Origin: Porticoccus sp.
GTDB lineage: Bacteria; Pseudomonadota; Gammaproteobacteria; Pseudomonadales; Porticoccaceae
NCBI GenBank assembly: GCA_018066715.1
Contig: JAGPWA010000083.1
Span: forward strand, 1 to 36,746
Direction: 5' to 3'
DNA: 36,746 nucleotides
Position 1 is the first letter of the stretch. Each line of letters starts with the position of its first letter. Below are positions 3,597-15,593 of the stretch, piece after piece. A model generated the notes under the pieces. It did not search any database and was not told where the DNA came from. It worked only from the letters and a program-made list of their open reading frames with translations. Both the position numbers and the translations under genes were made by a program.

Positions 3597-4334
3597 TTAG
3601 TCCTCGTGTTTATCGTGATGGTGAATAACCTCTTCCAGCTTCAGGCCGGTTAGCTTGGTTACGCCCCTGAATAAATAAAACAGTGCCCCCATAAGTACCA
3701 ACATTGCGGGTATGGCAATAATAGGAAAGCTTAGCGCCGTCATTTTGCCTAATTGCTCATTGAATTCAACCGTTCCTGGCTGACTGGTGATCAACACTGT
3801 AGCGAGAATGTAATTGAGCAAGGATGACAGGAAAAAAGACCCAGCGATCAGCCATGAGGCATTAGCTAGGCAGACTTCAAATTTTTTGTTGTTACCATTT
3901 TCGTCCAGAGCCTGACTAATACGGTCCGTTTGTAGGATTTTATCGTTATATAAAAAAGTTTTTACCAGTGGGTAAGGTGTTTTAAGCGAAACAATGGTGG
4001 CCAGCCCAAATATTGCCGGAATCATCGCTTCCTTTATGGCGATGTAGGCGGGGTCCAGTTCCATAAGACTGATGCCGCCAGTGAGTAGAATACTGATGAC
4101 GCCTAGGGCTGAGAAAAAATTAAATCGCCTCAGGGTCACAAAATCTTTAAGCCCGTATATCAGTGGGAATGACAGGGCGACGACAATAGCAACGCGAGTA
4201 CCTAGGTATTCATCACCACTTAGCTTGGTCAGAATAAGGGTAGGAATAATAATATTGAATGCAAGGTTTAACAGTAAGTTTTCACTTTGGTTGTTTTTTG
4301 CACAATTCTTCTTTGAGGGTATTGGTGAGTCCAT
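3597..4334 (-). CDS. VC0807-like multi-pass membrane protein of unknown function
   Basis: The protein is 245 residues with about six hydrophobic helices (for example [86 protein letters not shown]) and a short His-rich cytoplasmic tail ([10 protein letters not shown]). It resembles the VC0807 family, long hypothetical proteins distantly like the septation protein YciB (Ispa/InsP). Placing it immediately before a YciI-like gene repeats a common gammaproteobacterial pairing. No catalytic motif is visible. It is divergent from the TPP-enzyme operon across a 229-bp gap. I am confident that it is an integral inner-membrane protein and only moderately confident of the family name. Confidence 0.8.
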
Positions 4335-4446
4335 CAGGCGGAAAACCGGTCTCTGTAAGGGTATAGGGCGGTTATTGTAAGGGAATTAGCGTCAGTAATC
4401 GAGGGGGGTAGTGTTGCTATACTCTATTTTTTTAATTTCGTACTAC

Positions 4447-4485
4447 TTCACAGTTAGAAAACCAAAAAGTTGAAATTACTGTGAA
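4447..4485. promoter_or_regulatory. Inverted repeat, candidate operator of the 4564-15593 operon
   Basis: Two perfect 8-bp arms, TTCACAGT at 4447-4454 and ACTGTGAA at 4478-4485, are separated by 23 bp. The arm centres are 31 bp apart, about three helical turns, so both face the same side of the DNA. The left arm lies just upstream of the -35 element and the right arm sits in the promoter spacer, as expected for a looping or bipartite regulator. The regulator is unknown; none is encoded in the operon except the kinase. Binding is inferred from symmetry and position only. Confidence 0.45.
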
Positions 4486-4499
4486 AATAAGGCCATAAT
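4470..4499 (+). promoter_or_regulatory. Sigma-70-type promoter for the accessory operon
   Basis: TTGAAA at 4470-4475 and CATAAT at 4494-4499 each match five of six consensus bases, with an 18-bp spacer. Transcription would start near 4506, leaving a leader of about 55 nt before the ATG at 4564, which has an AAGGAA ribosome site about 9 nt upstream. The rest of the 229-bp gap between 4334 and 4564 holds the upstream inverted repeat and a T-rich stretch, and no gene. This is a by-eye match to consensus. Confidence 0.55.
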
Positions 4500-4563
4500 G
4501 AAGAAACCCGTACAACAGATTTAACAAAGTGCCATAACTTGCTGAAAAACAAGGAAAATAATT

Positions 4564-6357
4564 ATGAGTGCTGTGAGAGCTGGCAAGGAACTGGGGCAGG
4601 AAGCCGAGGAAGGAGCTGAACTAGGGGACTTGTTAGTTTCTTATTTAGAGCAGCTTGGTGTGGAATATGTGTTTGGTATTCCCGGCGGAGCCATTGAGCC
4701 ACTCTACAATGCGTTGGCTCGTAGTGAGCGAAGAGGTGGCCCGCGAGCGGTGATTGCCCGGCATGAGACTGGTGCTGCGTTTATGGCGGAAGGTTATGCC
4801 ATAAAAACAGGTAAGCTTGGTGTTTGTTGTGCCACTACAGGCCCGGGTGCCACCAATTTGATCACGGGTGTGGCGTCAGCCTATGAGAATAATATTTCCA
4901 TGCTGGTTATTACTGCTCAGACAGCACTTAGTGATTTTGGTCGAGGCGCAGTGCAGGAATCATCTTGTACCGGTATTAACACGGTTGGTTTGTTTGAGTA
5001 TTGCACTCGATATAATACGCTAGTTTCCCACCCGAAACAGTTACAACATAAGTTGTCATCCGCTGTAATGACCGCGATGCATTCTCCTACAGGGCCTGTT
5101 CATTTAAGCATCCCTATGGATGTGATGAAAAGCCCTGTTTCGTCGTCAGAGCCAGATTTCAATCTTGATCGACTTCTTGATAAACCTTCACTGCTTGATG
5201 ATGTGGCAGTCGGGCAGTTCTATAATGAGTTGCTCCATGCAAAAAACCCTATCTTTGTTATAGGTGATGAGGCCAGTGAAGCCATTGGCAGTATATTGAG
5301 TGTCGTTGTAAAAATGCAGGCGAAGATTATTGTGACGCCTCATGGTAAGGGCCTTGTCAGTCCATATCATCCTCTATTTAGAGGTGTCATAGGTTTTGCC
5401 GGGCATGAAAGTGCGCGTGCAGCATTATCTGACCCGAGAGTAGACCTAGTGGTTGCAGTAGGAACAAGCTTTGGTGAAGCCGCAAGTGATGGTTGGAATT
5501 CTGAATACTTCCTGACAAAAAAGCTAATTCATGTCGAAGCAACAGAAGAGCATTTACTGCGTACGCCAATGGCAAAACTACATGTCAGGGGGAGGCTCTC
5601 AACCATTTTTGAGCAGTTGAATGAAGACTTAGGGGAAATGCAGGGTAAGGAAGGGAAGGTTGTTTCCATGCCAGTTGCAGTTGGTAGTTCAAACCTCAAA
5701 TCACGTCGATATTTTAGCTTGGATGACCCCGTTGCCTATCATTCTGATCAAGCGCCAATTAAACCACAGCGGTTGATGTGTCTGCTCCCACAACTGTTCC
5801 CTCCGAACACCTGTTATTTGGCAGATTCTGGGTCTAGTTTTGCTTGGGCTGCGCATTATTTGCATCCTTATGACAGGAGGATTGAGGGAAAGCGTGATGC
5901 CCATGGCGGTGTGTATCGCTCTGCTCTTGAGTTCGGTTCTATGGGTTGGGCTATTGGTAGTTCCATCGGTGTTGCTCTGGCTGACCGAAAAAGCCCCGTT
6001 GTTTGTATTACTGGTGACGGAAGCATGTTAATGGTGGGCCAAGAAATTACTGTGGCCATACAAGAAAAGCTTCCCGTCGTATTTGTGGTTTTGAATGATA
6101 GTTGTTATGGCATGGTGCATCATGGGCAGTCTCTTACTGGTGCAGAACCTATTGGGTGTGAATTGCCAGAAGTTGATTTCGCAGCATTTGCCCGTTCTAT
6201 GGGGGTGGATAGCCACATAATAAATTCACCAAAAGACTTGCTGGCTATTGATGTTGATTATATTTGTAAACGAGAAGGACCCACGCTCCTTGATATCAGG
6301 ATAGACCGAAATGAAGTTCCTCCTATGGGGGTTCGGATAAAATCCCTGACAAAATAA
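4564..6357 (+). CDS. Acetolactate-synthase-like thiamine pyrophosphate enzyme
   Basis: This 597-residue protein has the three-domain layout of the POX/acetolactate synthase family. The N-terminal domain has the catalytic glutamate in RHETGAAFMAEGYA (E68) and the GPGATNLITGVASAY stretch. A Rossmann-like middle domain spans about 210-350, and the C-terminal TPP domain has the GDG...N cofactor motif (GDGS 484-487, N511). Such enzymes decarboxylate a 2-oxo acid or cleave a 2-hydroxyacyl compound and transfer the carbanion. The N-terminus has about 20 extra acidic residues. There is no ilvN/ilvH-type regulatory subunit nearby, and the neighbours are citrate-synthase-like rather than branched-chain genes, so ordinary valine/isoleucine synthesis is unlikely. 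It is the first gene of the operon, with an AAGGAA ribosome site. The substrate is unknown. Confidence 0.85.
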   Translation: MSAVRAGKELGQEAEEGAELGDLLVSYLEQLGVEYVFGIPGGAIEPLYNALARSERRGGPRAVIARHETGAAFMAEGYAIKTGKLGVCCATTGPGATNLITGVASAYENNISMLVITAQTALSDFGRGAVQESSCTGINTVGLFEYCTRYNTLVSHPKQLQHKLSSAVMTAMHSPTGPVHLSIPMDVMKSPVSSSEPDFNLDRLLDKPSLLDDVAVGQFYNELLHAKNPIFVIGDEASEAIGSILSVVVKMQAKIIVTPHGKGLVSPYHPLFRGVIGFAGHESARAALSDPRVDLVVAVGTSFGEAASDGWNSEYFLTKKLIHVEATEEHLLRTPMAKLHVRGRLSTIFEQLNEDLGEMQGKEGKVVSMPVAVGSSNLKSRRYFSLDDPVAYHSDQAPIKPQRLMCLLPQLFPPNTCYLADSGSSFAWAAHYLHPYDRRIEGKRDAHGGVYRSALEFGSMGWAIGSSIGVALADRKSPVVCITGDGSMLMVGQEITVAIQEKLPVVFVVLNDSCYGMVHHGQSLTGAEPIGCELPEVDFAAFARSMGVDSHIINSPKDLLAIDVDYICKREGPTLLDIRIDRNEVPPMGVRIKSLTK

Positions 6358-6358
6358 A

Positions 6359-7177
6359 ATGACTAATAAAAATAAACAAGAAACGATAACTACTAAAATC
6401 TGGAATGAAATTCCAGAGGATGACAACCCTTTCGCTGCTAAAGTTTGCTATTGCTCAGGCTTTGATGTTTATGGAGACCTTTTGGGTAAAGCTAGCTATA
6501 TCGAATATCTATATTTACTCTTCAAGCTAGAACCTCCATCACCAAATCATGCCTTACTTTTGGAAGGGCTTGCTATAGCGCTGGCTAACCCAGGTATTCG
6601 TGATCACAGTGTCCGTGGCGCCATGAATGCTGGTGTAGGTGGTTCTACACACGCTTCGGCATTAATGGCTGCTCTTGCTGTGGGCGCAGGCAATCTTGGT
6701 GGAGGTCGTGAAGTTTATAACATGATCAAATACTGGGAGCAGTGTGGTACCGACATAAATGCCTGGGAACAAATGATAAAGGAACCGCCTGTTGAAGAAA
6801 GAGCGGATGTTTGGCCGTCAATGGAGCATGCCCCTGGTTTTGATCCAAATGGTGCTAGCTGTACTTTGCCGGTTAAGCAGGTTTTGGCGCATATGGTGAA
6901 GATCGGTGACAGCGAAAAGCTGGAATGGTTACAAGCTAATAGAGAGCGCTTGGAGCAGTTTGCAGAATGTCCTCTTGCTATGTCGGGTGTCGCAGCAACT
7001 GCTCTGCATGAATTACAACTAAGTCCAGATCAAGCTGAAATGTTATATCTATTGTTGAGGCTGCCTGGTGCCGCTGTTCATAGTTTAGAGCAAGAGAAGC
7101 TTGGGTGGAGGCGGTATCCATTTTTTGGGGATGGGTTGAAGTTACAAAAATATAATCCAAAAGAGAACATGGGATAA
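6359..7177 (+). CDS. Citrate synthase/citryl-CoA lyase-like protein, copy 1 (catalytic residues apparently missing)
   Basis: The protein is 272 residues, short like citryl-CoA lyases of the citrate synthase superfamily rather than full citrate synthase (about 430). Family traits by eye are the helical GVGGSTHASALMAALAVGAG followed by GNLGGGREV (111-119, where HGGA is usual), GFDPNGAS (160-167, where GxGHP is usual), and a C-terminal PLAMSGVAATALHEL (205-219) followed by LRLPGAAVHSLEQ, resembling the NxDG...PGLxAHxxEE end of the family. The two catalytic histidines and the aspartate are thus not seen at their usual places. It begins 1 bp after the TPP-enzyme stop and is followed 3 bp later by its paralogue, suggesting a heteromeric complex. 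This remains a remote-homology call. Confidence 0.7.
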   Translation: MTNKNKQETITTKIWNEIPEDDNPFAAKVCYCSGFDVYGDLLGKASYIEYLYLLFKLEPPSPNHALLLEGLAIALANPGIRDHSVRGAMNAGVGGSTHASALMAALAVGAGNLGGGREVYNMIKYWEQCGTDINAWEQMIKEPPVEERADVWPSMEHAPGFDPNGASCTLPVKQVLAHMVKIGDSEKLEWLQANRERLEQFAECPLAMSGVAATALHELQLSPDQAEMLYLLLRLPGAAVHSLEQEKLGWRRYPFFGDGLKLQKYNPKENMG

Positions 7178-7180
7178 CAG

Positions 7181-7987
7181 GTGAAAAAAGAAAAGATGTT
7201 TTCGGAGTATGAAGATAATTGGGAAACATCTATGGGTGCTATTTTTCCTGGAGAAAAGGTTGTTCTCAGAGGGAAAGATGTTTTAAAAGAATTAAAGGAT
7301 TATCGGTGGGTTGAATACTTGTTGTTTGGTATTACAGGAAGGGAATCACCTCGTCTTGCCCGTTTAATTGAAGGGATGTGGCTGATTTGTACAAGTTTTC
7401 CTGACCCTAGATTATGGAATAACCGTGTTGCTGCTTTAAGTGCAACAGCCAGATCAACTGGTGTTTTGGGTTCTGCGGGAGCTCTGGCTGTTTCTGAGGC
7501 CACAATATATGGTCTTAAGCCTATACAGGGTGTGTCTGATTTTTTGTATCGAACATCTGAAAAAATTGCAAAGGGGCAATGTTTGGAAGATGTGGTGAAG
7601 TCTGAAGTAAAAAAATACCGAGGAATCTATGGTTATGGGAGGCCAGTTGCTGATAAAGATGAGCGAATTGGCCCGCTTTTGGAGTTTGCAAAATCTATGG
7701 GTGCAGGTGAGGGTCCATATACTAAGTTGGCTTTTGATGTCGATAATTATTTAGGTTCTTCACGTTTGAGGTACAGAATTAATGCATCTGGGGTAGTGGC
7801 AGGTCTTCTTGCAGATGAAGGTTTAACACCTAAAGAGTTATACCATATAGCAACGCTTACGTTTACGGCGGGGGTTATTCCTTGTTACATCGATGCACTA
7901 GAAAAGCCTGAGGGTACTTTTTTCCCTCTTCGAATATCCCGAGTAAATTATGAGGGAACAGCAGTGTCTAGAGTCTGGGGGCAATAA
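7181..7987 (+). CDS. Citrate synthase/citryl-CoA lyase-like protein, copy 2 (catalytic residues apparently missing)
   Basis: The protein is 268 residues from a GTG start; an ATG at 7196 is an alternative and neither has a strong ribosome site. It keeps superfamily features: RWVEYLLFGITGRESPRLARLIEG near the start (the YLLF signature also seen in copy 1), FPDPRLWNNRVAALSATARSTG, then YGYGRPVADKDERI (150-163) in place of GxGHP...DPR, and RINASGVVAGLLADEGL (199-215) in place of the NxDG block. The normal catalytic His and Asp appear replaced by Arg and Asn/Ala. With copy 1 it probably forms a hetero-oligomer, although activity on a CoA ester is doubtful. Codon use is AT-rich relative to the housekeeping genes nearby. 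The next gene starts 2 bp later. Confidence 0.7.
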   Translation: MKKEKMFSEYEDNWETSMGAIFPGEKVVLRGKDVLKELKDYRWVEYLLFGITGRESPRLARLIEGMWLICTSFPDPRLWNNRVAALSATARSTGVLGSAGALAVSEATIYGLKPIQGVSDFLYRTSEKIAKGQCLEDVVKSEVKKYRGIYGYGRPVADKDERIGPLLEFAKSMGAGEGPYTKLAFDVDNYLGSSRLRYRINASGVVAGLLADEGLTPKELYHIATLTFTAGVIPCYIDALEKPEGTFFPLRISRVNYEGTAVSRVWGQ

Positions 7988-7989
7988 AA

Positions 7990-10119
7990 ATGGCTAATAA
8001 AAAATATCTAAAAGCCTTACCAATAGTGTTCATTTTTTTGTGTTCATTTTCTCATGGAGAAGATGAAGAAGATTTGATGGCACTTTATGGTGGTGAAGAG
8101 TTCATAAGCATTGCAACGGGTGTTGAGCAGCCTCTTCATAAAGCCCCTGCAGTTGTTTCTGTTTTGACGAAAAAAGATATTGAACGAATAGGCGCTACTG
8201 ATATTGATGAGATTTTAGAAACGGTTCCTGGTCTTCATGTTGCCAGAGATGCGAAGGGTTATAACCCAATCTATGTATTTCGGGGCATCAATGCTACAGA
8301 AAACCCTCAGGTCTTAATGTTGATTAATGGCATACCCATAACAAATTTATTCCAAGGAGATAGGAACCTGGTTTGGGGCGGGATGCCGGTTCAGGCAATC
8401 TCAAGAGTCGAGGTGATCCGTGGGCCCGGTTCTGCATTATATGGTGCAGATGCATTTGCTGGGGTGATTAATGTTGTCACTCATGAGGCCGATGGAGTGT
8501 CTCAATTTAAAACTGGGGTGAGATATGGGACACATAATACAAAGGATTATTGGTTGAGTGGTGGTGGGTCAGTAGGCGAGCTCAAGTATTATGGTGTTGT
8601 AGAAAGTCATGAAACAGATGGTTTTGATGAAAAAGTAAAATCGGACCAGCAGTCAAACTTCGATTCTCTTCTTGGAACTAGCGCATCATTGGCTCCCGGT
8701 TCGGTGAATATGGAGAGAGATAATATAGATGCACGTATGGAACTGGCCTATAAAAAATTTAGATTAAGGGCTGGAGCGCAGATTAGAGACGGTGCGGGAG
8801 ATTATGCCGGAGCAGCACAGGCACTATCAGCTGATAATAAATTCTCAAGTGATAGATTGAATGTAGATTTGACCTATGAAAATGAAGAATTTATAGATGA
8901 CTTGGCAATAAAAGTTCAGACAAGCTATTTGCATACTACACAAGAAGTTGAAGGTGATTTAGTACTTTATCCTGAGGGAACAGTTGTGCCGCCCATCGGT
9001 GGTTTTGGCGTCTACACTGACGGCGTCATCGGTACTCCTGAGCTTAAGGAGAGGCATACAAGGTTTAATTTTTCTAGCCTCTATTCAGGCATAAATAGGC
9101 ATAAAATCGCTTTTGGAACGGGCTATTACCATGGCGAGCTTTATGAAGTAGAAGAGTCCAAAAACTTTGGTTTGGATCCTTCTACGGGTTTACCCATTCC
9201 CCCTGGCGACCCGGCGGTTGATGTAACTGATCTTGATGATTATGTTTTTATATCTGAAGGTGGTCGCGAGAATACTTATGTTTTTATCCAAGATGTCTGG
9301 CAGCTGTTTAATGATTGGGAGCTGACAGCCGGTGTTCGTTATGATCATTATTCGGACTTTGGCGACACGGTAAACCCAAGATTGGCTCTAGTTTGGTCAA
9401 CCAGCAGGAATCTGACAACGAAGTTTATTTATGGTGAAGCATTTAGGGCTCCGTCCTTTGCGCAAACTCGAGTTATTAATAATCCTCTAGTTGAAGGGAA
9501 CCCAGAATTAGATCCGGAAGAAATGAAGAGTTATGAAATAGCATTTGATTATAGGCCTCGGCATGATCTCACGTTTAATTTGAATGCTTTTTATTATAAG
9601 TGGGAAGATATTATTCAATTTGTCCCTGTTGGGGGTGGTGCTTCTGAAGCTCAAAATAATGGAGAGCAAACAGGTCATGGGGTGGAGTTTGAGACAACAT
9701 GGCAAGCTTTTCGAGATTTGGAGCTTTCTAGCAATTTTTCCTGGCAAAAGTCTGAAGATAGAAACTTGGATGCAGATGCTGCCCATTCTCCAGAGAAGCA
9801 GCTGTACATGGCAGCAAACTGGCAGCCTACAGAGTTGTGGAATATCCATGTTCAGGCTAACTGGGTTATGGATCGTAATAGGGCGGCAGGTGCAGATGAT
9901 TTTCGTTCAGATATAGATAATTATGCATTGGTTGATTTAACCATAAGGCGTAAATCATTATGGGATCATGTGGATATTGCCCTACTAGTCAAAAACCTCT
10001 TTGATGAAGGTGCGCGGGAACCAAGTCTTGCCGGAGGCGTTGGTTTTCCTGTTCCCATTGAGGATGATCTGCCGCTGGCGGGACAAACTATATCCGGCGA
10101 AATTCGCTATAACTTTTAA
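7990..10119 (+). CDS. TonB-dependent outer-membrane receptor
   Basis: This 709-residue protein starts with a signal peptide (basic NKKYLK, hydrophobic ALPIVFIFLCSF, cleavage near SHG/E). A short conserved segment follows, EDLMALYGGEEFISIATG (26-43), then the plug domain at about 50-165 (VPGLHVARDAKGYNPIYVFRG, VEVIRGPGSALYGADAFAGV), and a beta-barrel of about 520 residues ending in GEIRYNF with the terminal Phe expected for BAM insertion. It imports, or senses, a ligand using TonB energy. No TonB/ExbBD gene is present, so it would use a system elsewhere. No long N-terminal signalling domain of the FecA type is present and there is no sigma/anti-sigma pair. The ligand is unknown. The gene follows copy 2 by 2 bp, with GGGGG upstream acting as ribosome site. 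Confidence 0.93.
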   Translation: MANKKYLKALPIVFIFLCSFSHGEDEEDLMALYGGEEFISIATGVEQPLHKAPAVVSVLTKKDIERIGATDIDEILETVPGLHVARDAKGYNPIYVFRGINATENPQVLMLINGIPITNLFQGDRNLVWGGMPVQAISRVEVIRGPGSALYGADAFAGVINVVTHEADGVSQFKTGVRYGTHNTKDYWLSGGGSVGELKYYGVVESHETDGFDEKVKSDQQSNFDSLLGTSASLAPGSVNMERDNIDARMELAYKKFRLRAGAQIRDGAGDYAGAAQALSADNKFSSDRLNVDLTYENEEFIDDLAIKVQTSYLHTTQEVEGDLVLYPEGTVVPPIGGFGVYTDGVIGTPELKERHTRFNFSSLYSGINRHKIAFGTGYYHGELYEVEESKNFGLDPSTGLPIPPGDPAVDVTDLDDYVFISEGGRENTYVFIQDVWQLFNDWELTAGVRYDHYSDFGDTVNPRLALVWSTSRNLTTKFIYGEAFRAPSFAQTRVINNPLVEGNPELDPEEMKSYEIAFDYRPRHDLTFNLNAFYYKWEDIIQFVPVGGGASEAQNNGEQTGHGVEFETTWQAFRDLELSSNFSWQKSEDRNLDADAAHSPEKQLYMAANWQPTELWNIHVQANWVMDRNRAAGADDFRSDIDNYALVDLTIRRKSLWDHVDIALLVKNLFDEGAREPSLAGGVGFPVPIEDDLPLAGQTISGEIRYNF

Positions 10120-10161
10120 GAACAAAGTATCGCTGATAAAAAGCAGTTAGGGAAAACACGG

Positions 10162-11106
10162 ATGAAGCTGAATTTTTCTTTTAGAGTTAGACGGCGAAAC
10201 GGCAGTGTTTTTTTACCTGCTTTATTATTCGTTGTTCTATCGCTGTGTGGCATTAGTGCCGCAGGTCAAAGTGCTGAGTTGCTGGTAGTGTATCCAGAGG
10301 TTAGGGCTCCATTTTCAAAGATTTTTAATGATATATCCACTGGCGCTGAAGAGGGTTTTGTCGGTGATACGAGCTCGGTAGCTATTAGGGAAGGTGAAGA
10401 AGTAGGCTCACTTCTAACCCGTAAGAAGCCTGATGTAGTTCTAGCGCTTGGGAAACGGAGTCTTTCCAGTCTTAAGGCCTCAGATAGTAATGTTCTTGTC
10501 ATACTGGGCGCGGTGAATGAAGAGCAGTACGACTATCCAGGGATATCGATGGTACCCGACCCCGAAGTAATACTGGATAAGTTGATATTGTTGTCTCCTT
10601 CCGTCAAGCAGGTTCATGTGGTCAAAAAGTCCCGTGGTATTGATGTGCAACTGGAAGGTGCTAGTGAATACTTAGTGGAACACGGCAAAAAACTTATTGT
10701 TCATGAGAGTGGAGATATACGTGAGGCGGCAAATATCTATGCGGAATTAATAGAAAAAGCGAATGCTGGTGATTCGATTTGGATATTACAAGATGGTTCC
10801 TATGTTAATAGTGCCATTTTTTCACTGTTACTAGATGCCGCATGGAGTAAGAGCCTAGTTGTTTTTTCATCAAACCCTCTACATGTAAAGCGTGGCGCGT
10901 TATTTGCTGTGTACCCTAATAATAGAGACATGGGGGAAAGCCTTGGTAAGTTAGCCAATCAAGTTCTGAGTGATGGAATGAAGCCGGGTCTGCAACCGTT
11001 ACGAGATGTTTTGGTTGCCGTTAATGAGAGAACGGGTAATCACCTTGGACTTGCATTGACAACGGAAGTAAAAAACAACGTCGATTTGCTGTTACCTGCG
11101 AGGTGA
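10162..11106 (+). CDS. Periplasmic ABC-type substrate-binding protein (PF04392-like), no transporter nearby
   Basis: The 314-residue protein has an Arg-rich N-terminus followed by a hydrophobic core (LPALLFVVLSLCGISAAG) and a likely signal-peptidase site near residue 36, so it should be periplasmic. The body alternates beta-alpha units with features of the ABC_sub_bind/TrpX type: KPDVVLALGKRSLSSL, VLVILGAVNEEQYDYPGISM, VKQVHVVKKSRG and a C-terminal GALFAVYPNNRDMGESLGKLANQ. No permease or ATPase gene is adjacent. Its stop overlaps the GTG of the hybrid kinase by 4 nt, so a sensory rather than transport role is more likely: it could present a ligand to the kinase periplasmic domain. A TAGGGA ribosome site lies about 10 nt upstream of the ATG. 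The family call is by eye. Confidence 0.8.
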   Translation: MKLNFSFRVRRRNGSVFLPALLFVVLSLCGISAAGQSAELLVVYPEVRAPFSKIFNDISTGAEEGFVGDTSSVAIREGEEVGSLLTRKKPDVVLALGKRSLSSLKASDSNVLVILGAVNEEQYDYPGISMVPDPEVILDKLILLSPSVKQVHVVKKSRGIDVQLEGASEYLVEHGKKLIVHESGDIREAANIYAELIEKANAGDSIWILQDGSYVNSAIFSLLLDAAWSKSLVVFSSNPLHVKRGALFAVYPNNRDMGESLGKLANQVLSDGMKPGLQPLRDVLVAVNERTGNHLGLALTTEVKNNVDLLLPAR

Positions 11107-14100
11107 AACAGGTGGAGGCTAAACCAAACAAGAAAGCAACGGGGATGAAGTTCAGAAATCAACTGAGTTTGATTTTTGTCGTCGGTATTCTTGTTATGGC
11201 GGTAACAACCTCTATTGCGGTAAGTAATATTTCTAGCCAGATTGTGCGTGATCGGGAGATTCAGCAAGGCTTGCAGGTGACTGATTCACTGGCGAAGCAG
11301 AGTGAGCTAGCCTTGCTTTATCATAGTAAGGAAAGCGCCAAAGATATCGTAGATACAGCATTGAATTTTCCTGGTGTTAAGGCGGTATCTATTGTCACTG
11401 AAACGGGTACCGTATTGCACACCGGGGGCGGGGTTGTCACACAAGTTCCTTTCTACAAGCCCTCTGTCGCAAAGATGGTTCACGAAGATAATGATTATTG
11501 GTCGTTTTCATCGCCGGTTCTGGCAGGAGCTTCACAAGACAGTGTCTGGGGAGAACTTTATGGTGAAGATAAAGAGAAAGAAGTCTCTCTAGGTTATATA
11601 ACGGTATTAATGGGGAAGGATACCGTTATCTTGATGGAACGGAGTATTTTACGGGGCAATCTTCTGATTTCCTTGTTGGTTGCGGTTGTCTTGCTACTGC
11701 TCTTACTCGGTATTTCACGCCGACTCACCAAACCGCTTGAAAAACTTGCAGCTACCATGAAGCAGGCAGAAGAAGGTGACTCCATCATTCGGGCTGATGT
11801 AGGCGGTCCCGTTGATATCACCGATATGCAACATGCCTTTAATTCCATGATGGAAGCACTGGAAAACCGGCAGAAGGAGTTGATGCGTGCCATGTCGGCT
11901 GCTTTAGAGTCTGCTCGCGTGAAAGGTGAGTTTGCAGCGAATGTTACTCATGAACTGCGCACGCCAATGAATGCTGTGTTGGGGATGCTTGATTTACTCA
12001 TGACCATGGGTCTCAGTGCTAAACAGCTTGAATATGTTGAAACGGCAAAAACATCCGGTGAAAGCCTGTTACAACTCATTGATGAAATTCTTAATTTTTC
12101 TCAGATAGATTCTAATAATCTTTCTATTGTTAAAGACGATTGTTACATCCAGGAATTGTTAGATGATGTTATTAACTTGCTTGCTAATCAGGCACTTAAG
12201 AAGAATTTAGATTTTGGGTACGTCATTTCTGATGACGTGCCTAGGATGATTCATTCAGATTCTTCACGTCTCAGACAGGTGTTGATCAACCTGGTTGGTA
12301 ATGCCATTAAGTTTGCTGACATTGGTGAAGTATCTATCCACATGGATATTCTCGATGTAGAAACCCCCACTCCTGAGAATGAATTGCTGGTTCGATTTGA
12401 GGTTCGTGATTCTGGCATTGGAATTACCGCGGAAGATCAACAGCGTATCTTTGAGGCATTTACTCAGGCAGATTCATCCAGTACTAAGGAATATGAGGGA
12501 ACAGGTCTTGGGTTGGCTATTAGTAAGCAGATAGTCGAGTTGATGGGTGGGGATATATCAGTCTCGAGTCAGCCTGGAAAGGGGAGCTCATTCTGGTTTA
12601 CTGTACCTACTCCGAGGTTAGATGCCAGTAAGCCTGAAGAGGCCGTTGTACCGGCTTTTTCCGGTTTAAATGCACTGTTGGTGGATGATAGTGAGATAGT
12701 CCGAGAATTCGGTGCCCAACAGCTCAATCAAAAAGGTATTGACTGTACCACTTTGGACACAGGTATTAAGGCGCTTGACGTGATTCGTGAGCTGTCAGCA
12801 AGTAGCAGTAGCTTGGACATTCTAATTGTCGATGAAGATATGCCAGGCTTAAAGGGAATGGATTTCCTCAAGCTGACCCGGGAGGAGCCCTCCCTGAAAA
12901 ACACCACTATTCTTATGCTGAGTAACCCTTGGACGATGGGGGATATACATAACGATTACAGTATGACCCGGCTAAATAAGCCGTTACGTCCCAAAGAGAT
13001 AAATGCCGTTCTTGAGAAGCAATTATTGGGGCAGGGTGAGACTGAAAAATCTGCGTCACAACCAAAGACAATAGAGCGGCTCTACAGTAGGCCCAAGAAA
13101 ATTTTGGTGGTCGATGACAACCGTCCTAACCAGCAGGTAGCTATTGCTATGCTGGAGCGAATGGGGTGTCGATGTGAACTGGCGTCTACGGGGAAGGAGG
13201 CTGTTGAAGCAATTATTCGCAACCAATTTGATGCTGTCCTGATGGACTGTTATATGCCGGTGATGAACGGCTACGATGCTACTCGCCAAATCAGAATGTA
13301 TGAGGGCGGGGAAAATGCAGATAACCGTATACCTATCATTGCCATGACAGCAAATAATACGCAGGTTGAGGTGGACCGCTGTATGGATGCAGGGATGGAT
13401 GATTTCCTCTCCAAACCCTTGCGTATTAATGAGCTAACAAACACCTTAGTCAAATGGGTGCCCAGAGATTTACCTGAAACTTCTACCGATACGGATAGCC
13501 AGTTGGGTGAGCTTAGCTCTAATGAGTCTACCGTCGTGCACAGCAGTGCCAGTTACGACCCTTTGGTCATTCAGGAACTAAAAGATGGCATCGGAGAAGT
13601 CATTGTTTCGATGATCGAGGCCTTTCTTGAGGATACGCCCGTCTACTTACGGTCGTTAAAAGAGGCAATTGCTCAAACGGATACCAAACAGGTTAGGGAG
13701 TTGGCGCATACCGTTAAAGGGAGCGCGGCAAATTATGGTGCGTACCAGGTCGTTGAGCTTTCTAGGTCGTTGGAAGAAAAAGGTGCTACGGCAGATTTGT
13801 CGGGTTCAGAAAAAATATATGAGCACTTAGTGAAGGCATATACCAGGTTAGGGAGAGATTTGGAAGAGTACATTCTGGCAGCTGATGACAGTGCCCAAGG
13901 GCGTGATAAGGGGCATCATTTACTGATTGTAGATGACGACCGTTCCATGCGGCTTGCATTGAAGAATGTGTTTAAGTCAGAGGATTACATTATCGAAGAA
14001 GCCAGCAACGGAATGCATGCTATTTCTATATGCCAGCGCAGAATGCCCGATTTGGTGTTGATGGATGCAATGATGCCGGAAGTTGATGGCTTTACGGCCT

Positions 14101-15593
14101 GTGAGCGTATTCGAGAGCTACCCAATGGGTCCGATACCCCGGTGCTAATGATTACGGCTCTAGATAACGAAGAGTCCATTGTAAAAGCCTTTGCTGCTGG
14201 AGCGACTGACTTTATTCCCAAGCCCATTCACTTTGCCGTGCTGAAACAGCGTGTATCTCGTCTCATTCAGGCAAACAAGGTAGAGAAGCACGTTAAACAG
14301 CTCGCTTACCATGATCAGTTGACGGGGCTTCCTAACCGCACGAACCTGATGCAACAGCTTAGAGTGATGGTGAATCGGGCCCAGTTGGAAGAGAAAAAAA
14401 TAGCGATACTATTTCTGGATCTAGATCGATTTAAATTAATCAATGATACCCTCGGTCATGATGCGGGTGACTTGCTGCTTAAAGCCGTATCCGACCGGAT
14501 TCGCCGCTGTGTCCGGAATCAAGATTTTATTGCACGCTTAGGTGGGGATGAGTTTACCGTAGTACTTGAAGGTATTACTGATCAAGAAGTTGTATCTAAA
14601 ATTGCCGCTAAAATTTGCGATACCCTAAGTACGCCCTTTGTGTTTCTTCAACAAGAAATGTTTGTTACCACGAGTATCGGGATATCTATGTTCCCTGATG
14701 ACGGGGCGGATATAGGCACTCTGATGAAACATGCAGATTCAGCCATGTTTCGCGCCAAAGAGCAGAGAAATGACTATTGTTTCTATGTGCAGGGGATGGA
14801 AGATGAAATTGCTCGGCGTATGGAGCTGGATAGAGAGTTACGTTCGGCCATTGGTGCTAATGAGCTAGTGCTGTATTACCAACCTCAAATTGACTTGGTT
14901 ACGGGTGAAGTGGTGGGTGCCGAAGCGTTGATCCGTTGGAATCATCCGAGACACGGATTGGTGATGCCCGATACATTCATTCCCTTGGCTGAAGAGTCAG
15001 GGCTTATTAATCAAGTCAGTGACTGGGTGCTGGAAGAGGCCTGTCGGCAATTACAGGCTTGGAGTAACAGCGGTAACGAGTTGTTCAAACTTGCAGTGAA
15101 TATGTCCAGTAAGGATATTCAAGCAGAGAGCTTTAATGGCAAGCTGAGAAAAATGCTAGAGAAGTATGATGTTAAGCCCAATAGGTTAGAGCTGGAAATT
15201 ACAGAAAGTACTTTGATGGAGAATCCGGAAGAGCTAGAAGGTGAATTGAACGCTATGAGGGAAATGGGGCTGACCTTGGCAATTGATGATTTTGGTAGCG
15301 GTTTTTCTTCGCTTAATTACTTGAAACGGCTACCTGTTGATGTGTTGAAAATTGACAGAATGTTTATCTGCGATCTAGAAGAAGATGAAAGTGATAGAGC
15401 CATTGTCACCGGTATTATTGCATTGGCTACAAGTATGGGGCTCAGCACTGTGGCTGAGGGGGTTGAGACTGAATACCAATATAACCTCCTCCAAAAGCTA
15501 GGTTGCGATACTTGCCAGGGCTACTATTTTAGTAAACCAATACCGGTTGCAGATTTTGAAGAGAAGTTCTTTAAACAAGAAGTGATTGTCTAA
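11103..15593 (+). CDS. Hybrid sensor kinase with three receivers, HPt, GGDEF and EAL domains
   Basis: The protein is 1496 residues. It has TM1 at 21-40, a periplasmic sensor at about 42-183 resembling CHASE8, TM2 at about 187-204, HAMP at 205-257, HisKA with phospho-His H283 (VTHELRTPMN), and HATPase (N400, DSGIGI, GTGLGLAIS 466-474). Then come receiver 1 (D528/D529, D577, K626), receiver 2 (D671/D672, D715, K771), HPt (H869 in AHTVKGS), receiver 3 (D944-D946, D988, K1040), GGDEF (GGDEF 1147-1151 with an intact RxxD inhibitory site R1138-D1141) and EAL (EAL 1274-1276, DDFGSG 1395-1400, EGVE 1452). All phosphorelay and catalytic residues look present, so one chain could sense, relay phosphate and both make and break c-di-GMP. 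The GTG start overlaps the previous stop by 4 nt; an ATG at 11145 is the alternative. Confidence 0.93.
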   Translation: MKQVEAKPNKKATGMKFRNQLSLIFVVGILVMAVTTSIAVSNISSQIVRDREIQQGLQVTDSLAKQSELALLYHSKESAKDIVDTALNFPGVKAVSIVTETGTVLHTGGGVVTQVPFYKPSVAKMVHEDNDYWSFSSPVLAGASQDSVWGELYGEDKEKEVSLGYITVLMGKDTVILMERSILRGNLLISLLVAVVLLLLLLGISRRLTKPLEKLAATMKQAEEGDSIIRADVGGPVDITDMQHAFNSMMEALENRQKELMRAMSAALESARVKGEFAANVTHELRTPMNAVLGMLDLLMTMGLSAKQLEYVETAKTSGESLLQLIDEILNFSQIDSNNLSIVKDDCYIQELLDDVINLLANQALKKNLDFGYVISDDVPRMIHSDSSRLRQVLINLVGNAIKFADIGEVSIHMDILDVETPTPENELLVRFEVRDSGIGITAEDQQRIFEAFTQADSSSTKEYEGTGLGLAISKQIVELMGGDISVSSQPGKGSSFWFTVPTPRLDASKPEEAVVPAFSGLNALLVDDSEIVREFGAQQLNQKGIDCTTLDTGIKALDVIRELSASSSSLDILIVDEDMPGLKGMDFLKLTREEPSLKNTTILMLSNPWTMGDIHNDYSMTRLNKPLRPKEINAVLEKQLLGQGETEKSASQPKTIERLYSRPKKILVVDDNRPNQQVAIAMLERMGCRCELASTGKEAVEAIIRNQFDAVLMDCYMPVMNGYDATRQIRMYEGGENADNRIPIIAMTANNTQVEVDRCMDAGMDDFLSKPLRINELTNTLVKWVPRDLPETSTDTDSQLGELSSNESTVVHSSASYDPLVIQELKDGIGEVIVSMIEAFLEDTPVYLRSLKEAIAQTDTKQVRELAHTVKGSAANYGAYQVVELSRSLEEKGATADLSGSEKIYEHLVKAYTRLGRDLEEYILAADDSAQGRDKGHHLLIVDDDRSMRLALKNVFKSEDYIIEEASNGMHAISICQRRMPDLVLMDAMMPEVDGFTACERIRELPNGSDTPVLMITALDNEESIVKAFAAGATDFIPKPIHFAVLKQRVSRLIQANKVEKHVKQLAYHDQLTGLPNRTNLMQQLRVMVNRAQLEEKKIAILFLDLDRFKLINDTLGHDAGDLLLKAVSDRIRRCVRNQDFIARLGGDEFTVVLEGITDQEVVSKIAAKICDTLSTPFVFLQQEMFVTTSIGISMFPDDGADIGTLMKHADSAMFRAKEQRNDYCFYVQGMEDEIARRMELDRELRSAIGANELVLYYQPQIDLVTGEVVGAEALIRWNHPRHGLVMPDTFIPLAEESGLINQVSDWVLEEACRQLQAWSNSGNELFKLAVNMSSKDIQAESFNGKLRKMLEKYDVKPNRLELEITESTLMENPEELEGELNAMREMGLTLAIDDFGSGFSSLNYLKRLPVDVLKIDRMFICDLEEDESDRAIVTGIIALATSMGLSTVAEGVETEYQYNLLQKLGCDTCQGYYFSKPIPVADFEEKFFKQEVIV

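Follow-up and report, generated by a model that had tools for sequence, protein, structure and literature searches.

A widespread gene unit of Gammaproteobacteria that may make, re-import and sense its own small molecule

What joins a thiamine diphosphate (ThDP)-dependent enzyme, two proteins of the citrate-synthase fold, an outer-membrane receptor, a periplasmic binding protein and a membrane kinase in one run of bacterial genes? The question is raised by a stretch of 36,746 nucleotides from Porticoccus sp. (assembly GCA_018066715.1, contig JAGPWA010000083.1), referred to here at its full length as the window, in which six genes termed TPP, CS1, CS2, TonB, SBP and HK follow one another on the forward strand. 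A reading made from the letters alone (hereafter the sequence-only reading) had taken them for a very probable operon that might import, sense and make or break a small molecule. Here, we compute the gene set, its conservation, the folds of its products, the catalytic residues that they have lost, and the KASIII and tailoring genes that stand in the unit. The unit is real and widespread, and it is undescribed as far as literature searches reach: these turned up neither a description of the system nor a characterised pathway made of the same genes. The six genes may be a bacterial signalling circuit, so far undescribed, for a self-made small molecule.

Layout and conservation of the unit

The sequence-only reading had set the six genes back to back on one strand, and this was borne out to the base, with gaps of 1, 3, 2, 42 and -4 bp between successive open reading frames (ORFs). 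The 'one good promoter' that it placed in front of them fared worse: the region holds 13 promoter matches against 21.0 ± 5.1 in shuffled sequences, so that such matches, of which the best is 10/12 at 4470-4499, are not evidence. A terminator scan returned 7 sites against 10.2 in shuffles, which is no evidence either way. It is spacing and conservation, not transcripts, that point to a single operon. The genome from which the window comes amounts to 2.33 Mb in 153 contigs.

Conservation was followed through 161 non-redundant loci, in which duplicates from the same species were kept only where CS2 differs. The loci were gathered by searches with CS1, CS2 and SBP, so the presence of CS genes is largely by construction, and those from the contig search are the best 80 of 368. 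Gene content was tallied in the 88 loci where the sequence extends 7.5 kb or more to either side of the CS gene, the other 73 of the 161 being dropped for their short flanks; automatic thresholds set entry to the tally, and five loci with weak CS2 matches (L182, L183, L184, L186 and L187) are not carriers by eye. All six genes occur in 58 of the 88 loci, with varied orders and flanks. Gene by gene, TPP is present in 82, CS1 in 81, CS2 in 86, TonB in 79, SBP in 65 and a kinase or regulator in 76, the last count taking any match that reaches 90 bits with the kinase profile and thus including separate response regulators. Of the 141 loci with both CS genes, 140 have CS1 immediately before CS2; SBP adjoins HK in 99 of 100, and in 96 of 128 loci TPP shares the strand of CS1 and lies within 400 bp of it.

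Among 97 related genomes, the window's own included, CS1 was found in 42 (17 of 50 genera), and many of the 40 neighbourhoods taken from these carriers have the order TPP-CS1-CS2-TonB-SBP-HK. Some Porticoccaceae have the unit flanked by an opposite-strand membrane-protein gene and by Sua5-ScpA-ScpB-RluB; other genera of the family have different flanks, so that the unit behaves as a discrete one. Four genomes of another family of the phylum (f246) have the order TonB-CS1-CS2-TPP-SBP-HK, and the recurrence of the gene set in other families, together with this reordering, indicates more than chance. In genomes drawn evenly from the class, CS2 (E ≤1e-20) is present in 43 of 369, or 30 of 272 genera, while at the same threshold it is present in 10 of 398 genomes from the phylum, 8 of these outside the class. 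The 73 genomes matched in the CS2 search comprise 45 at E <1e-60, one (G091) at 3.8e-25 and 27 weak matches (3e-13 or worse) that look like ordinary citrate-synthase or lyase relatives. Carriers by record title include Cycloclasticus, Methylococcaceae, Thiogranum, Sedimenticola, Hahella (L145, Hahella sp. CCB-MM4) and Collimonas (L149, Collimonas humicola), metagenome bins of Cellvibrionales and of Porticoccus/Porticoccaceae are the closest named records, and a record titled Planctomycetota has TPP-CS1-CS2 only; titles of metagenome bins are possibly wrong, for example those of L141 (Planctomycetota) and L126 (Flavobacteriales). Across these genomes the neighbours stay attached to the TPP-CS1-CS2 core, which is not confined to unrelated surroundings.

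Several side observations concern the layout. In the window, a gene at 3597-4334 on the reverse strand encodes a 245-aa membrane protein with no Pfam match, which is conserved in some Porticoccaceae, where it lies divergently upstream of the unit. At L056 (G049, 4170-6891), and also at L150, the CS1 frame that comes after TPP merges with the last part of the kinase, and everything between them (CS2, TonB, SBP and the greater part of the kinase) is gone; this is either a deletion scar or an assembly error. L212 (G674), L200 (G577) and L224 (G519) have two TonB receptors each, and L212 also has two TPP genes, as if the unit had been partly doubled. At L225 (3370-8682) and L228 (10036-15216), TPP-CS1-CS2 stands beside a giant Ser/Thr-kinase-AAA-GAF-histidine-kinase protein and not beside TonB-SBP-HK.

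The enzymes of the unit

TPP (4564-6357, forward strand) encodes 597 aa with three TPP_enzyme domains (Pfam), a predicted ThDP-dependent carboligase that resembles HKA synthases. In a search of PDB sequences, BbmA and CsmA are matched at 8.6e-82 and 1.2e-71 against 2.5e-58 for acetohydroxyacid synthase (AHAS). The best structural match to the AlphaFold model (pLDDT 85.5) is 8x3x, titled 'ThDP-dependent HKA synthase', and three entries of this title rank first (Z 43.8, 43.8 and 42.6), followed by AHAS at 39.9. ThDP carboligases have a catalytic Glu; His67-Glu68 and Gly484-Asp485-Gly486 are invariant in 30 of 30 aligned relatives. A ten-row comparison sets HGQ in the window's TPP family against QWQ in the AHAS-like paralogue of its own genome (L254), and BbmA also has the Gly; Gly in place of Trp may widen the pocket. 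BbmA is 32% identical to the window's TPP, and the TPP of L227, from f246, shares 43% identity with BbmA and 37% with the window's own. In the tree, which is midpoint-rooted and carries a long-branch warning, BbmA joins the f246 TPPs (98/94) outside the main clade.

CS1 (6359-7177, forward strand, 272 aa) and CS2 (7181-7987, forward strand, 268 aa, GTG start) have no Pfam match, and their NCBIfam citryl-CoA-lyase matches are weak and far below cut-offs. Alignment profiles searched against PDB sequences find citryl-CoA lyase 6hxp for both (6.1e-26 for CS1 and 4.8e-17 for CS2), the AlphaFold model of CS2 (pLDDT 90.8) matches the same entry with Z 22.9 and a root-mean-square deviation of 2.5 over 229 residues, and the two profiles match one another (99.2%). 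The expectation of ordinary citrate-synthase chemistry that went with this likeness did not hold, as the catalytic His and Asp are missing. In CS2, Arg (Arg154) stands at the catalytic His of GYGHR in 140 of 140 sequences and the catalytic Asp of NVDG is present in 0 of 140, while a second Arg (DER motif, 160-162) and an Asn (Asn201) are kept in all 140; CS1 has the catalytic His in 3 of 141 and the catalytic Asp in 2 of 141. Fixed gene order and two different sets of conserved residues suggest that CS1 and CS2 form an obligate hetero-oligomer, with CS2 the likelier catalytic partner.

Two genomes bear on what this pair may do. In G036 (L233, a single contig from the same family as the window), SBP is present and CS1 was not found. 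The order there, at the window's syntenic place, is TPP, a 316-aa KASIII (13218-14168, identified by Pfam, with NCBIfam below cut-off), TonB, SBP and HK, followed by genes of 207, 293, 269 and 272 aa that read like Sua5, ScpA, ScpB and RluB. The other two of the three genomes in this genus have CS1 and lack this KASIII, and the TPP of G036 is nested with those of its genus mates (100/98), so that the swap happened in place. In L235 (G466, from another family, 86% complete and 6% contaminated) the order is TPP, a 131-aa ORF, KASIII, TonB, SBP and HK; the 131-aa ORF has no Pfam match. The usual KASIII triad is Cys, His and Asn, and by eye these residues are present in both proteins. The simplest reading is that CS1-CS2 would carry out an acyl condensation comparable to that of KASIII.

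Genes inserted in the unit may point to what becomes of the product. A scan covered every ORF of 180 aa or more within the core span, 42 in all, and 13 are of tailoring types: short-chain dehydrogenases/reductases (SDRs) in L136, L145, L149, L154, L211 and L212, O-methyltransferases in L120, L124 and L219, sulfotransferases in L061 and L159, a carbamoyltransferase in L136 and an asparagine-synthase-type amidotransferase in L217. Six acyl-CoA dehydrogenases (L160 and L161) and one aldolase-SDR protein (L211) were also found, and the remaining 22 are regulators, periplasmic proteins, transposases, pieces of TonB or TPP, unrelated genes and ORFs with no match. Outside the core span, L146 has an O-methyltransferase and L130 a glycosyltransferase after TonB; L237 has a methyltransferase with TPP on one side and TonB on the other, and no CS gene was seen there. 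Insertions of these types would be more in keeping with a small molecule that is decorated and secreted than with the breakdown of a nutrient.

Uptake, sensing and the function of the unit

The TonB-dependent outer-membrane receptor (7990-10119, forward strand, 709 aa) has Pfam Plug and barrel only, with no N-terminal STN domain of the kind found in FecA-type transducers. SBP (10162-11106, forward strand, 314 aa) is a PF04392-type periplasmic binding protein (Pfam E 2.4e-8) with a signal-peptide-like N terminus, and its matches to PDB sequences are weak only (3lft, 0.0042). No ABC permease or ATPase occurs among the 42 inserted ORFs or in the window's unit, the rest of the genome not having been searched, and since none is inserted the PF04392 protein probably reports rather than transports. 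HK (11103-15593, forward strand, 1496 aa, GTG start) is a membrane hybrid kinase with the Pfam layout sCache_4-HAMP-HisKA-HATPase-receivers-Hpt-receiver-GGDEF-EAL; the receivers make up three stretches, and the GGDEF and EAL letters are present in the translation. Receivers, Hpt and GGDEF-EAL are carried by one protein in the window and L149, a short kinase is paired with a separate REC-REC-PAS-GGDEF-EAL protein in L105 and L172, and the kinases of L060 and L227 have a receiver but no GGDEF-EAL. The cyclic di-GMP (c-di-GMP) output proposed from the window is therefore common among the kinases but not universal.

Other sensory genes were seen at some loci. YfiR-like and CHASE8-PAS-GGDEF-EAL genes lie beside the core at L210 (11536-14493) and L211 (11329-14352), where SBP was not found, and at L168 (9827-11467) a gene for a methyl-accepting chemotaxis protein is convergent to CS2, with no SBP or kinase nearby.

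The reading that we favour, and to which we give an even chance, is a conserved unit that makes an acyloin-type molecule, takes it up again by TonB and senses it in the periplasm. The ThDP carboligase would make an acyloin-type product, which a CS1-CS2 hetero-oligomer, using residues other than those of citrate synthase, would process with an acyl-CoA, either by acylation or by formation of a Claisen-type C-C bond, perhaps decarboxylative. This step would correspond to that of the KASIII-like enzyme in carbazole pathways and, seemingly, in two genomes here. In some lineages the product would be reduced, methylated, sulfated, carbamoylated or amidated. It would then leave the cell, return by the TonB receptor and bind the PF04392 protein, which would report to the membrane kinase, and a phosphorelay from the kinase would change c-di-GMP. 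The individual reactions, the choice of an acyl-CoA as partner and the identity of the imported and sensed ligand with the unit's own product are all inferences.

The receptor allows a different use of a self-made compound. If the core made a chelator and TonB re-imported its metal complex, with SBP and kinase reporting the supply to c-di-GMP, the unit would serve metal acquisition and not cell-cell signalling. NCBIfam matches of TonB include haem, B12 and siderophore receptor models, and in the DNA around L154, L168 and L179 synthase and TonB occur without SBP or kinase. No receptor subfamily cut-off is reached among the 25 matches listed, however; no non-ribosomal peptide synthetase, siderophore synthase, ABC permease or ferric reductase is found among the 42 inserted ORFs; and most kinases are coupled to c-di-GMP. 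We regard a metallophore, though the foremost of the alternatives, as unlikely.

Whether the enzymes make or break a bond had been left open by the sequence-only reading, and the evidence favours making, given that HKA synthases are nearest to TPP among solved structures, that KASIII can stand where the CS pair does and that tailoring genes are inserted. Were the unit catabolic, an environmental compound would enter by TonB, be sensed by SBP and kinase, and be broken down by TPP-CS1-CS2 in the manner of 2-hydroxyacyl-CoA and citryl-CoA lyases. The ThDP and citryl-CoA-lyase folds do include lyases, and acyl-CoA dehydrogenases lie beside the unit in L160 and L161, but the lyase's catalytic His and Asp are lost, the inserted tailoring enzymes add groups, and genes for transporters, CoA ligases or ring-opening enzymes do not accompany the unit repeatedly across families (there is one AMP-ligase, in L226). 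Scavenging of this kind seems to us quite improbable.

The tie between the two halves of the unit can be judged by co-occurrence. In the 97 related genomes, CS1 accompanies a strong SBP match (E <1e-60, 41 genomes) in 39. In the 369 class genomes, SBP (E up to 1e-35) is present in 46 and both genes in 38, leaving five with CS2 only and eight with SBP only; put otherwise, SBP occurs in 38 of the 43 genomes with CS2 versus 8 of the 326 without. Fisher p values of 4e-21 for the relatives and 2e-38 for the class ignore shared ancestry and linkage. CS2 and SBP lie within 10 kb of each other in 28 of the 38; in G489, G510, G737 and G738 they are at separate places, as judged from contig ends, and still co-occur, and the other six of the 10 unlinked genomes may be contig breaks or partial matches. 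The attachment of the core to receptor, binding protein and kinase, which had been proposed from the window alone, is strongly supported by this co-occurrence and by the 58 loci with all six genes. That the halves are two modules, with a TPP-CS1-CS2 product unrelated to the TonB-SBP-HK ligand and joint travel owed to chance or a genomic island, would suit the loci with SBP and kinase but no CS2 (L238, L239 and L241) and those with synthase and TonB but no SBP (L154, L168 and L179), yet is very unlikely in view of the rarity of SBP without CS2, the joint presence even where unlinked and the same gene set in other orders.

Some genomes may have kept only the sensing half. G636, G638, G645 and G664, whose completeness is 98 to 100%, carry SBP and kinase but lack CS2 and are possibly receivers only, a search for another synthase elsewhere in them not having been made. 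L232 (G467, 6078-11575) has both TonB and TPP in pieces, short CS1 and CS2 frames, and an SBP and kinase that look intact; it reads as a decaying synthase with the receiver kept. An SBP-kinase fusion in L240 was ruled out, as a profile check found no SBP in the 1,839-residue frame, which is an over-extended kinase ORF; SBP lies in a separate frame.

Several points weigh against a self-made, re-imported signal. No substrate, product or ligand is assigned to the unit, and neither an exporter nor a gene for 2-oxo-acid supply was seen in the unit of the window. BbmA has modest identity to the window's TPP and falls outside the main clade, at the end of a long branch. Genes for SDRs and methyltransferases are common in general, and the share of tailoring types among the insertions is a raw count, not set against random flanks. 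There are two KASIII cases, and in them KASIII might have introduced another function once the CS pair was lost. Neither the L060 kinase nor the L227 kinase has c-di-GMP domains, and SBP is present in just 65 of the 88 well-flanked loci, so sensing by SBP is not obligatory.

Comparison with known systems

Taken a step further, the self-made signal might represent a new class of bacterial chemical communication, of wide occurrence among Gammaproteobacteria. A ThDP carboligase would act with a hetero-oligomer of the citrate-synthase fold, whose catalysis would be new and for which KASIII could substitute, to produce an acyloin-type signal; tailoring would give lineage 'dialects', the unit's own TonB receptor would re-import the signal, SBP would read it and mostly drive c-di-GMP by phosphorelay, and some genomes would be receivers only. 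We put this forward tentatively, at somewhat less than even chances. If true, it would mean that a signalling system, with c-di-GMP as its output in most cases, can be spotted from the genome sequences of bacteria that are largely uncultured, and that a citrate-synthase fold has been recruited to natural-product chemistry.

Several known systems resemble parts of the unit. BbmA and CsmA (PDB 8x3x and 8x3z) are the nearest solved structures to the window's TPP and have Gly at the Trp of the AHAS-like paralogue; their clusters, which were not searched for this, are not known to contain CS-like pairs, TonB receptors or kinases. Citryl-CoA lyase and citrate synthase share the fold of CS1 and CS2, but their His and Asp are lost in nearly all CS1 and all CS2, and the CS proteins are always two different subunits. 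Xenocyloin pathways use ThDP and KASIII-like enzymes. In carbazole biosynthesis, a ThDP HKA enzyme is joined with a KASIII-like enzyme (PMC7466098). The carquinostatin (cqs) and neocarazostatin (nzs) clusters thus resemble L233 and L235 in having TPP and KASIII; they differ from the window, which has CS1-CS2 and no KASIII among its six genes, and they make antioxidants in Streptomyces and are not known to have the sensing half of the window's unit.

The sensing half has counterparts of its own. In YfiBNR-type control, a periplasmic protein likewise stands beside a membrane c-di-GMP enzyme, and L210 and L211 have a YfiR-like gene; the window differs in its SBP, its phosphorelay kinase and its linked synthase. 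The unit links a putative synthase genetically to a periplasmic binding protein and a kinase, as an autoinducer circuit would. Circuits of the LuxPQ and CqsAS type share with the window a periplasmic binding protein and a membrane hybrid kinase, with the synthase gene nearby as in cqsA-cqsS, whereas the window is set apart by an SBP of the PF04392 type, a TonB receptor within the set, c-di-GMP domains coupled directly to the kinase and a different synthase chemistry.

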